From Leekyejoonella antrihumi (GTDB lineage Bacteria; Actinomycetota; Actinomycetes; Actinomycetales; Dermatophilaceae): a stretch of DNA of 64,000 nucleotides. A program made the translations under genes and the position numbers. Shown here in pieces: positions 54,957 to 58,497 of this stretch. Position 1 is the stretch's first letter. Each line of letters starts with the position of its first letter. The notes below the pieces were generated by a model. The model was not told the origin of the DNA. It did no database searches and saw only the letters and a list, made by a program, of their open reading frames with translations. The DNA is taken from contig NZ_VCQV01000010.1 in NCBI RefSeq assembly GCF_007845645.1, positions 62,001 to 126,000 of the forward strand. The letters run 5' to 3'.

Positions 54957-56351
54957 ATGGCCAGTAAGGTCACCCCCATCAGCGGATTCCAGGAATGGCT
55001 GCCCGCGCAGCGGATTGCCGAGCAGCACTTCCTCGACACCATCCGGGAGGTCTTCGAGCTGCACGGGTTTGCCTCCATCAACACCCGTGCGGTCGAGCCG
55101 GTCGACCGGCTGTCCAACCAGGGCGAGGATGCCGACAAGGAGATCTATGGCGTCTCCCGGCTCGCCGGCGACGACTCGTCCGAGGCGAGCCTGGGTCTGC
55201 ACTTCGACCTCACCGTGCCCTTTGCGCGTTACACGCTGGAGCACTCCGGCAAGCTGACCTTCCCGTTCCGGCGCTATCAGATCCAGCAGGCCTGGCGCGG
55301 CGAGCGCCCGCAGCGAGGCCGTTACCGAGAGTTCACTCAGGCCGACATCGACATCGTCGACGCGAACGAGCTCCCGTCGCACTACGAGGCCGAGCTGCTG
55401 CTGGTCATCGCGGACGTCTTCTCCCGCCTTCCGGTCGGCGACTACCGCATCCACGTCAACAACCGGAAGATCTGCCAGGGCTTCTACCAGGGCATCGGCA
55501 TCGAGGACGTCATCGGGACGCTGCGGATCGTCGACAAGCTCGACAAGGTCGGCGACGACGGCGTCACCAAGCTGCTGCTCGCGGCCGGGTGCACCCGGCC
55601 GCAGGTCGACCAATGTCTCGCGCTGGCCCAGATCTGCACCGCCGACAGCACGTTCGTCGACCAGGTTCAAGCGCTCGGGGTGCACAACGACACGTTGGAG
55701 GAGGGCCTGGCCCACCTGAAGTCGATCATCGACACTGCCAACGAGCACGCTCCTGGCGTGGCCGTTGCCGATCTGCGGATCGCCCGCGGTCTCGACTATT
55801 ACACGGGCACCGTCTACGAGACGATGCTCGAGCGCGAACCGAGTTATGGCTCGATCTGCTCCGGCGGCCGTTATGACGCCCTCGCCTCCGACGGCAAGCG
55901 CACCTATCCGGGCGTCGGCATCTCGATCGGTGTCTCGCGGCTGCTCGGTCTGTTGATCGGCGAGGAGGGTCTCAGCGCATCCCGCGAGACTCCGTCGGTC
56001 GTGCTGGTGGCGGTCAACCACGAAGACTCGCGCCCCGAGTCGATGCGGGTCGCGGCGGCGCTGCGCGCCCGAGGTATCCCGACCCTGGTGTCACCGAAGG
56101 CGGCGAAGTTCGGCAAGCAGATCCAGTTCGCCGACCGCCGCGGGATCCCGTACGTCTGGTTCCCAGGCTCCGAGGCCGACAGCCCGGCCGCCATCCACGC
56201 CCCTTCGACAGGCACGGGCGACGAGCTGGATGCGACGGGCACGGGCGACCAGGTGAAGGACATCCGCAGCGGTGACCAGGTGAGCGCCGATCGCGACACG
56301 TGGACACCGCCTACGGCAGACCTGCACCCCACCATCGCCTTCCCCGAGTAG
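54957..56351 (+). CDS. hisS: Histidyl-tRNA synthetase
   Basis: 464-aa class II synthetase. Motif 1 is near RAVEPVDRLSNQGEDADKE, motif 2 LHFDLTVPFARYTLE…RYQIQQAWRGERPQRGRYREFTQADID, then the His-A loop ARGLDYYTGTVYETML and the C-terminal anticodon domain. The last ~55 residues are an unusual Asp/Gly/Thr-rich tail with internal repetition (GTGDELDATGTGDQV…SGDQVSAD) not typical of the family. ATG 54957. A 21-bp repeat array begins at its stop codon. Confidence 0.95.
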   Translation: MASKVTPISGFQEWLPAQRIAEQHFLDTIREVFELHGFASINTRAVEPVDRLSNQGEDADKEIYGVSRLAGDDSSEASLGLHFDLTVPFARYTLEHSGKLTFPFRRYQIQQAWRGERPQRGRYREFTQADIDIVDANELPSHYEAELLLVIADVFSRLPVGDYRIHVNNRKICQGFYQGIGIEDVIGTLRIVDKLDKVGDDGVTKLLLAAGCTRPQVDQCLALAQICTADSTFVDQVQALGVHNDTLEEGLAHLKSIIDTANEHAPGVAVADLRIARGLDYYTGTVYETMLEREPSYGSICSGGRYDALASDGKRTYPGVGISIGVSRLLGLLIGEEGLSASRETPSVVLVAVNHEDSRPESMRVAAALRARGIPTLVSPKAAKFGKQIQFADRRGIPYVWFPGSEADSPAAIHAPSTGTGDELDATGTGDQVKDIRSGDQVSADRDTWTPPTADLHPTIAFPE

Positions 56352-56413
56352 TCACTCCCAACCCGCGAGAAGTCACAACCAACTCCCGAGAAGTCACTAC
56401 CAGCACTCGAGAG
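56351..56413 (+). repeat. 21-bp tandem repeat array, left (three units)
   Basis: Units begin at 56351, 56372 and 56393, each GTCAC followed by a variable ACC/CCA-rich middle and CGAGA(A/G); a partial fourth unit starts at 56414. The first base is the G of the hisS TAG. Read in one frame they encode a REVT-heptad (REVTTNS, REVTTST, REVTR). A related array in opposite orientation lies at 57470-57548. Confidence 0.8.
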
Positions 56414-56531
56414 GTCACCCGGTGCCAAGGCTGGACCCGGTTCTCCACAACGGAGGGCGACGTATGTCGGTATTCACACCCGAGGACTGTTGAGCGGCCG
56501 GTCAGCGGCATTGCCGATCAGGCTGTGGTGC

Positions 56532-57470
56532 ATGACTTCATCAAGCTGTGTGGATGGACCGGCGTTTACCACCGGGATGGCGCGCGCCGAGGGTCTTGGG
56601 TCGAGTGACTTGCGTCAGTTGGTTCGAGCAGGAAGTGTCAGACGATTGGCTCATGGCCTCTACGTGCGTTGCGGCCAGGATCTCGATCTCCAGTCGAGGG
56701 CCCAGGCCTTCGGTTTGGTTCTGCCACAGCATCACGTCATCTGTGATCGAACTGCGGCCTGGATCCACGGGATCGACACCTACGACCTGCCTGGCCAGGC
56801 CTCGTCGCTGAGGCTGGAGACCGTGGCGCTGCGTGGCCGGACCCGAACCCGACGGGATGGCTGTATCGGCGCAGTGCGTGACCTGGCTCCGGACGACGTG
56901 GTCGTGGTCGGGGGCGTAATGGTGACGACGCCAGTGCGGACTGCACTTGATCTGTCGTGCAAGCTGAAGCCGATGTCGGCTCTGGCGGCGGTGGAGGCGT
57001 ATCTACACGCCGAGGTGGTTACCAAAGAACAGCTGCTCGCCCAGTTGCCGCGCTACAAGGGCCGCCGCGGCATCCGCCTCGCTCGGCAAGTCGTCGAACT
57101 CGCGGATTCGAGGGTTGAGTCCACAGGTGAGTCGTTCACGCGGATGGTGATCTATCGATCCGGTCTGCCGATGCCGGAATCTCAAGTGTGGGTATTTCGC
57201 GACGAGGGACACGACATCCGGTTGGACCACGCCTACAAGGGTCTGAAGATTGCGGTCGAGTATGACGGTGAAGAGTTCCACGGAGCCGATCGGCGGGAGG
57301 CTGACGACGCCCGCCGAGAATGGTTGCGGAACCACGGATGGTACGTCATCGTCGTGCGGAAGCATCAGCTCAGCGGAGTGAATGCACAGGCATGGATCGA
57401 TGAGCTTCGAGGTGAGATCATCGAGCGCAGCCGCAGCGCGGAGAGGTATTCGCGTTTCGCACGCTGGTAG
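56532..57470 (+). CDS. DUF559/Vsr-like endonuclease-fold protein with AbiEi-like N-terminus
   Basis: 312-aa. Residues 1-60 form a winged-helix-type start ([36 protein letters not shown]) as in AbiEi-type antitoxins and many DUF559 proteins. The C-terminus carries a PD-(D/E)XK-like core: [53 protein letters not shown]. Such genes are frequent, lone accessory genes in actinobacteria; function unknown. Start uncertain: ATG 56532 has a weak Shine–Dalgarno. It is bracketed by oppositely oriented 21-bp repeat arrays. Confidence 0.72.
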
Positions 57471-57548
57471 TGACGCCTCGCGTGCAATTAGTGACCTCTC
57501 GGAGGTTCTTCGTGACTCCTCGGGTGCAATTTGTGACCTCTCGGTGGG
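57470..57548 (-). repeat. 21-bp tandem repeat array, right (inverted)
   Basis: On the plus strand GTGAC occurs at 57470, 57491, 57512 and 57533, an exact 21-bp period, each preceded or followed by CTC(T/C)TCGG-like words. Read on the minus strand the units are GTCAC…CGAG(A/G)(A/G/C), the same consensus as the left array, and encode [14 protein letters not shown]-type heptads. It starts in the stop codon of the DUF559 gene and ends just before xerD. Confidence 0.8.
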
Positions 57549-57564
57549 GGAGAATGCGGGCACC

Positions 57565-58497
57565 ATGACTGAGCGATCGAGCGTCCTGCACCGCGCAATG
57601 ACGGGCTGGCTGGACCACCTGCGAGTGGAGAAGGGCGCGTCCGCGCACACGCTCGCGGCCTATCAGCGCGACCTGCGGCGGTATGCCGAGTACCTCGGCG
57701 GCCGCGGTGTGACCGACCCGGCCGCTGTCGGTGAGCTCGAGGTGGCCGACTTCCTGGCGACCCTGAGAGAGGGCACGCCGGAGCACCCGCCGCTGGCGCC
57801 CTCCTCTGCGGCGCGGACTCTGGTGGCGGTGCGGGGCTTCCACAAGTTCCTGGCGCTCGAGGGGGACACCACGGGCAACGTCGCCGCCGGCGTGGCACCA
57901 CCGCGGCCGCCGCAGCGGCTACCCAAGGCCATCCCGCTGGACCAGGTCGAGCGGCTGCTCGCGGCCGCGAGCGTGGGGGACACGCCGGCGTCGCTGCGCG
58001 ACCGCGCGCTGCTCGAGGTGCTTTACGGCATCGGCGCGCGGGTCAGTGAGGCCATCGGCCTCGATGTCGACGACGTCGACCTGACCACGGACAGCGTGCG
58101 GGTGATGGGCAAGGGCAGCAAGGAACGGATCCTCCCGCTGGGGCGCTACGCGAAGGAGGCCGTCACGGCCTACCTCGTGCGCGGCCGACCCGCTCTGGCG
58201 GGCAACGGGAAGGGCACACCGGCCCTGTTTCTCAACCAGCGCGGAGCGAGGCTGTCACGACAGTCCGCGTGGAACGTCATCCAGGCGGCCGCCACACGGG
58301 CCGACCTCTCCGGCCACGTGAGCCCGCACACTCTGCGACACTCGTTCGCGACGCATCTGCTCGACGGCGGCGCCGACGTGCGCGTGGTGCAGGAGCTGCT
58401 CGGGCATGCGTCGGTGACGACCACGCAGATCTACACCATGGTCTCGGTGCAGCAGCTGCGAGAGGTCTTCGCCAGTGCACACCCCAGGGCGCATTGA
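57565..58497 (+). CDS. xerD: Site-specific tyrosine recombinase XerD
   Basis: 310-aa recombinase resolving chromosome dimers at dif. N-terminal SAM-like core-binding domain ([30 protein letters not shown]); catalytic residues R ([13 protein letters not shown]), K ([12 protein letters not shown]), H-x2-R ([17 protein letters not shown]), H ([10 protein letters not shown]) and the nucleophile Tyr (TQIYTMVS). Linked to parA–scpAB as in other actinobacteria, so it is core and not a phage integrase. Confidence 0.94.

Follow-up and report, generated by a model that had tools for sequence, protein, structure and literature searches.

The AbiEi-DUF559 gene and the 21-bp tandem repeats on either side of it in the window (the whole stretch of 64,000 nucleotides of Leekyejoonella antrihumi DNA that was analysed) form a cognate pair, a conclusion that we regard as well supported. 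Repeats of the same kind are scattered over this genome, homologous genes in other genera are bracketed by arrays of the same motif, and the flanks of most other homologues carry different repeats. By analogy with REPIN-RAYT systems, the gene and its arrays probably constitute a system of that type built on an unrelated enzyme: the protein would bind the repeat units and its predicted nuclease would spread or maintain them.

The gene (positions 56532 to 57470, plus strand) encodes 312 residues from the ATG at 56532, a start inferred via the alignment of homologues; the reading frame is open from the TTG at 56490. Its left neighbour is hisS (54957 to 56351, plus strand; Pfam tRNA-synt_His, E 1.4e-27) and its right neighbour is a xerD-like tyrosine recombinase gene (57565 to 58497, plus strand; Phage_integrase, E 5.8e-47). 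Each array consists of four 21-bp units of the form GTGACnnCTCGn10, that is, an 11-base core and ten variable bases. The left array (56335 to 56418) lies on the minus strand with cores at 56345, 56366, 56387 and 56408, and the right array (57470 to 57553) lies on the plus strand with cores at 57470, 57491, 57512 and 57533, so that all steps within each array are exactly 21 bp and the two arrays point in opposite directions, as the original prediction had it. The arrays themselves are real: the window holds eight core matches against 1.88 expected, a number reached in 0 of 100 shuffles, and both arrays are also detected by TRF. Their described contact with stop codons was likewise borne out, with the hisS stop TAG (56349 to 56351) falling within the outermost left unit and the G of the DUF559-gene stop TAG (57468 to 57470) common to the stop and the first right unit. 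The right array ends 11 bp ahead of the xerD-like start. A protein-coding reading of the REVT-type heptads is not supported: they exist in unused frames only, hisS ending at 56351, and one array elsewhere is translated in another frame, as PEKSPTA, where it closes a gene that presumably encodes an MFS transporter. Coding heptads were rejected, as the reading frame varies from site to site.

The genome-wide search for further copies that had been suggested with the original prediction returned about 26 sites, most often at gene 3' ends. Across the 5.3-Mb genome a two-unit pattern gave 33 matches without mismatches and 100 with up to three, against 0 and 13, respectively, for the reversed control. 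Grouped by hand, with isolated chance-like matches left out, the 26 sites comprise 13 outward-facing pairs in (-)(+) orientation, whose arms are separated by as much as approximately 1.1 kb, and 13 arrays that stand alone. Positions and spacings were counted over the window, 20 stretches of this genome and 62 of at least 117 stretches matched in GTDB genomes (the Actinomycete ones among the 80 matches listed, L100 left out), where 41 (-)(+) pairs and no (+)(-) pairs were found within 200 bp. Where two full cores on one strand are separated by under 30 bp, the distance is 21 bp in 72 of 74 cases in this genome, with 22 bp in the other two, and 21 bp in 243 of 249 cases in the other listed Actinomycete stretches.

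With genes assigned by a simple gene caller, 23 of 39 arrays in this genome (window plus 20 stretches) have their outer end at a gene's 3' end. Among the matches listed, this holds for 67 of the 96 arrays of Nocardioides, Aeromicrobium and Modestobacter and for 10 of the 12 from Metallococcus carri. The corresponding numbers in the same three sets are 8, 14 and 2 for arrays at the 5' end of a gene, 5, 7 and 0 for arrays without a gene end, and 3, 8 and 0 for arrays inside a called gene. The distance to the stop codon is at most 17 bp in 22 of the 23 own-genome arrays that abut a 3' end. The right window array, which precedes a start codon, is an exception to this rule. Among gaps of at least 30 bp in the stretches counted, from this genome and the matches listed, arrays occupy 44 of the 85 between convergent genes, 40 of the 255 between tandem genes and 6 of the 106 between divergent genes, numbers of which only the ranking is meaningful because the stretches were chosen for having arrays. 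Five genes of this genome end at the identical point of the outer unit. In G004 four unrelated proteins (L056 and L057, which are one gene, L059, L060 and L061) have AKRQ or AKRH as their last residues, and it is apparently the array that provides the final codons and the stop.

The original prediction had also tied the arrays to the gene between them, as a possible cassette boundary, recombination substrate or RNA- or protein-binding array. The tie is supported, since homologues in other genera are bracketed in the same way. The arrays are not, however, peculiar to this cassette, as they stand at about 26 sites, and none of the seven other paralogues in this genome (L034 to L040) has this motif alongside. 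Arrays beside homologues were scored by a relaxed rule with the motif TGACnnnTCG, the same rule as for the paralogues. Of 27 homologue loci retrieved from twelve array-carrying genomes, 10 have such arrays alongside and 17 do not; the arrays lie on both sides at L246, L247, L248, L250, L251, L257, L258 and L260 and on one side at L259 and L261. Counting the window, a homologue adjoins arrays of this motif in 10 of the 12 genomes, and G866 and G869 have homologue loci without them. The homologue in N. luteus JCM 3358 (L088) is likewise beside TGACnnnTCG arrays. Gene and arrays also co-occur at the level of genomes: among 59 genomes of the family, homologues scoring above 200 bits are present only in G000 and G004, with the next at 95 bits, and these two are also the only ones of 149 family genomes with more than two array matches. 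The gene was also considered as the sole carrier of the arrays, an idea that we rejected: only one of the eight homologues in this genome lies at an array of this motif, yet there are about 26 sites.

The pairing extends to other repeats. We compared the 300 bp on each side of the gene for inverted or direct similarity, taking a score of 48 as the threshold. In genomes with several copies this score was reached in 27 of 35 matched flank pairs and in 0 of 98 mismatched pairs from the same genome. Three further sets consisted of best-matching loci. In genomes of the same family 17 of 28 matched pairs passed (14 of 28 under a stricter count), compared with 10 of 756 mismatched ones; other Actinomycete families gave 21 of 30 and 17 of 870, respectively. 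For Nocardioidaceae the figures are 25 of 29 and 46 of 812, the control being raised there because the loci are related. Set against 469 ordinary-gene controls (260-bp flanks, with the start of the window gene misplaced), 28 of 35 exceeded the 95th percentile and 23 exceeded the 99th. Altogether 90 of 122 AbiEi/DUF559 loci from Actinomycetes, the multi-copy genomes and the best-matching sets taken together, have similar repeats on both sides, mostly peculiar to the one gene, and 32 of the 122 fall below the threshold, including L037 to L039 of this genome. A second repeat family in this genome, that of paralogue L034, forms nine inverted pairs against 0 in the control, and two of the nine flank L034 itself. 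Similarity of the proteins is no simple guide to the motif: L255 and L260, two paralogues of G714 that are 51% identical, have different repeats, and L348 to L350, 52–56% identical to L260, have yet other repeats.

The distribution of this array motif is patchy. Among the matches listed for GTDB genomes, a three-unit pattern finds arrays in Nocardioides luteus, N. albus, other Nocardioides, Aeromicrobium, Metallococcus carri and Modestobacter, with a dialect that varies by lineage, as well as single matches in unrelated phyla; five stretches come from viral contigs, which may hint at a phage origin. Any match at all is present in 9 of 149 genomes of the family sample, of which only G000 (69) and G004 (20) have more than two. 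The order sample, which G004 lies outside, has matches in 14 of 396 genomes (45 in the L. antrihumi genome, 6 in G505 and 1 or 2 in the rest), and the class sample in 4 of 393 (40 in G000, 34 in G714 and 1 in each of two others). A 100-mer is common to G004 and M. carri in 3 of 6 loci tested, and G004 is therefore M. carri or very near to it.

Individual sites can be stable, as in one 90-kb region where all four comparable sites are common to three Nocardioides genomes; a fourth genome has in the same region, at one site, a single-unit pair that reads as the L257/L258 type. Over 200 kb of N. albus and N. turkmenicus, on the other hand, four sites are present in N. albus only and one in both, among 93 shared neighbour pairs, and one N. 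turkmenicus site resembles a collapsed remnant, so array sites also come and go. At the four N. albus-only sites, which are poorly alignable, no clear target duplication was apparent by eye.

The spacing of units and pairs follows the turn of the DNA helix. The pair spacers in this genome are 2, 3, 14, 14, 24, 24 and 56 bp, with a Rayleigh R of 0.96 at 10.5 bp (p 0.0016) and 0.92 at 11 bp. Over the 41 pairs among the matches listed, the spacers are 2–4 bp in 24, 13–15 bp in 5 and 23–25 bp in 4, and periods of 10.5 and 11.5 bp give R values of 0.75 and 0.74, driven by the cluster of spacers at 3–4 bp. A clear tandem period is present on at least one side at 75 of the 122 AbiEi/DUF559 loci, the commonest periods being 21–22, 32 and 51–53 bp; for these 75 loci R is 0.68 at 10.5 (0.72 at 10), reached by 0 of 20000 uniform draws. 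For the 31 tandem loci from the same-family and other-family sets R is 0.49 at 10.5, reached by 10 of 20000 draws, but 0.51 is obtained with a period of 14 bp, and loci that are related are not independent. The two arms resemble each other in register slightly more than expected (0.535, with 0.509 as the reference; 2 of 2000 permutations came as high). An RNA hairpin as the main driver, to which the weak arm similarity might point, is less favoured against the helical spacing, which on balance favours binding of the units as double-stranded DNA. The excerpts of PMC7319586 describe AbiEi bound to two 23-bp inverted repeats 3 bp apart and Rv2827c site pairs 13 bp apart. The pair spacers found here, mostly 2–4 or 13–15 bp, come near to those of these published operators, the published AbiEi sites being 23 bp long and the present unit 21 bp.

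The window protein is predicted to comprise an AbiEi-like DNA-binding half (approximately residues 1–192) and a Vsr/homing-endonuclease-like half (approximately residues 197–301). An AlphaFold model built from a 20-row alignment has a pLDDT of 90 and a pTM of 0.87. In this model residues 1–192 match AbiEi with Z 10.2 and an rmsd of 8.5 (Foldseek 6y8q, E 1.8e-6), and residues 197–301 match the catalytic domain of I-Bth0305I with Z 11.7 and an rmsd of 2.4 over 95 aligned residues, and Vsr with Z 9.5. Mitochondrial ribosomal proteins score near Vsr in the same comparison (9i05, Z 9.9; 9g6k, Z 9.4), so the fold alone cannot name the activity. Over 20 homologues Glu 200 is invariant and Asp 232 and Glu 243 are conserved in at least 90%, and the conservation of these three residues suggests that they may be catalytic. 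Among Pfam families AbiEi_4 scores above its cut-off and MTES_1575, DUF559 and AbiEi_1 below theirs, no Y1 family is matched, and DUF559 is above cut-off in the homologues L251 and L247. The MTES_1575 domain is called a novel Vsr REase elsewhere (excerpts of PMC3710099).

Most AbiEi/DUF559 genes also have a DnaA-box-like site near their starts, TTATCCACA and TTGTCCACA being DnaA boxes. Between -160 and +60 of the start, TCCACA occurs in 103 of 122 AbiEi/DUF559 genes and 95 of 892 others, [AG]TCCACA in 93 of 122 and 65 of 892, and [AG]TCCACAG in 80 of 122 and 29 of 892; of 110 positions, 63 fall between -60 and -40 relative to the called start. The window gene has upstream only the weaker TTCTCCACA (56441 to 56449, plus strand), one mismatch from TTATCCACA. 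Such a site might link expression of these genes to replication.

Of the known systems compared, REPIN-RAYT is the model for the reading preferred here. A RAYT is a single-copy enzyme gene with its own repeat alongside and inverted doublets in gaps, with several enzyme-repeat pairs per genome (excerpts of PMC3116915), and REPs are found chiefly in the gaps of unidirectional and convergent gene pairs (excerpts of PMC3733652). The window gene is likewise flanked by its own dispersed repeats, inverted doublets stand outside genes, though half of the sites in this genome are single arrays, and several distinct enzyme-repeat pairs occur in one genome. The enzymes differ, as a RAYT is a Y1 tyrosine (HUH) transposase and the protein here is AbiEi plus a Vsr/homing-endonuclease-like domain, and so do the repeats, which are GTAG- or CGTC-tagged palindromes there and asymmetric, helically phased tandem arrays here. 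With AbiE type IV toxin-antitoxin systems (AbiEi, Rv2827c) the window protein shares the predicted AbiEi fold and the inverted sites of similar spacing, but no DUF1814 (AbiEii) toxin gene adjoins it, it has the extra nuclease-like domain, and its sites are scattered over the genome. The Vsr-like nucleases (Vsr, I-Bth0305I and DUF559/MTES_1575) resemble it in the predicted PD-(D/E)XK Vsr-like catalytic fold with acidic residues. Vsr acts in T:G mismatch repair and I-Bth0305I is a homing enzyme, and neither is known to be associated with scattered repeats. MITEs and their parent insertion sequences also have gene-bearing and gene-free forms with inverted ends, but those ends are simple, whereas the units here are tandem. 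At the four poorly alignable sites read by eye a clear target-site duplication was not seen.

In the REPIN-RAYT-like reading that we prefer, a single nuclease-like gene, its flanking repeat family and the gene-free copies elsewhere in the genome would be one system, and we infer that the protein itself binds, cuts and spreads or moves the repeats. The AbiEi-like half would bind each unit of approximately 21 bp as double-stranded DNA, one protein per unit, with all of them on the same side of the helix. A cut or nick at the array would then be made by the Vsr/homing-endonuclease-like half, and repair or copying after the cut would spread, amplify and keep the gene-free arrays, which would settle where they are least harmful, directly behind stops and chiefly between convergent genes.

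The main rival, which we consider unlikely, is that the arrays are sites used by the host, where the protein bound behind stops acts as a polar roadblock or insulator between convergent genes and the repeats are kept for this use rather than spread. The ranking of gap types, the outer array ends at stop codons and the constant (-)(+) orientation would all suit such a role. Arrays also lie, however, behind hairpins that by eye look like canonical terminators and ahead of genes such as xerD, which disfavours simple intrinsic terminators as well; moreover, the motif is missing from nearly all related genomes and host use would leave the nuclease domain superfluous. Autoregulation alone, with the flanking arrays as the operators of the gene and the scattered ones as duplicates without present function, is less probable still: AbiEi proteins repress their own promoter via inverted repeats (excerpts of PMC7319586), but the arrays flank the gene on both sides and the scattered arrays hold the 21-bp period almost without exception.

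A defence or self/non-self nuclease, for which the arrays would be decoys or markers of self DNA, seems to us very improbable. PADLOC matches the window protein with AbiEi models only, and a Caulobacter DUF559 Vsr-like protein causes an SOS response in cells without a cytosine methyltransferase (excerpts of PMC12907096). The gene nevertheless stands between hisS and a tyrosine recombinase gene without an AbiEii partner, and a private repeat for each gene is unexpected of a defence nuclease. Least credible of all is coincidence, by which gaps often contain repeats and the gene merely happens to be located in such a gap. Most of the approximately 26 sites do lack an AbiEi/DUF559 gene, and seven of the eight such genes in this genome are elsewhere, but coincidence is already contradicted by the contrast between matched and mismatched flank pairs in multi-copy genomes, in genomes of the same family and in other Actinomycete families, and by the ordinary-gene controls.

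Beyond this locus we lean, a little less firmly than for the window system itself, towards a class of selfish elements across Actinomycetes, in which a private repeat would be spread by an AbiEi-Vsr nuclease gene that in most cases has a DnaA-box-like site ahead of it. The units would be set by the helical turn (periods mostly of approximately 21, 32 and 52 bp, on one face), with a new code for each paralogue and several pairs per genome. Judged against open-access papers, such a class of repeat-spreading elements is apparently undescribed, its newness lying in the unrelated enzyme and the array form; a search of the open-access PMC literature, preprints excluded, returned no paper joining DUF559, repeats and Actinobacteria, and no title among its DUF559 papers mentions DNA repeats. 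If the reading is correct, it would give a concrete role to a large and mostly unexplained family, the actinobacterial AbiEi/DUF559 proteins without a toxin partner, and would explain many unannotated repeats in gaps. It would also amount to a second, unrelated solution to the job that RAYTs do on REPs, and the dozens of natural protein-repeat pairs would be a set from which to learn how AbiEi domains read DNA.

Some other repeats were noted in the same stretches. In G055, a genome of another genus, L044 and L049 show behind genes a further dialect, CGAGTCGTCACTTT, whose period is approximately 20–21 bp; no homologue in that genome reached E 1e-15. A different gap repeat, GGTCTCGACAGGCTCGACCACC, adjoins an array at approximately 4575–4680 of L107 in N. 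albus, and at approximately 5125–5190 of L079 another array of 21–22 bp (AACTCGC..TTCG) directly adjoins a GTGAC array.
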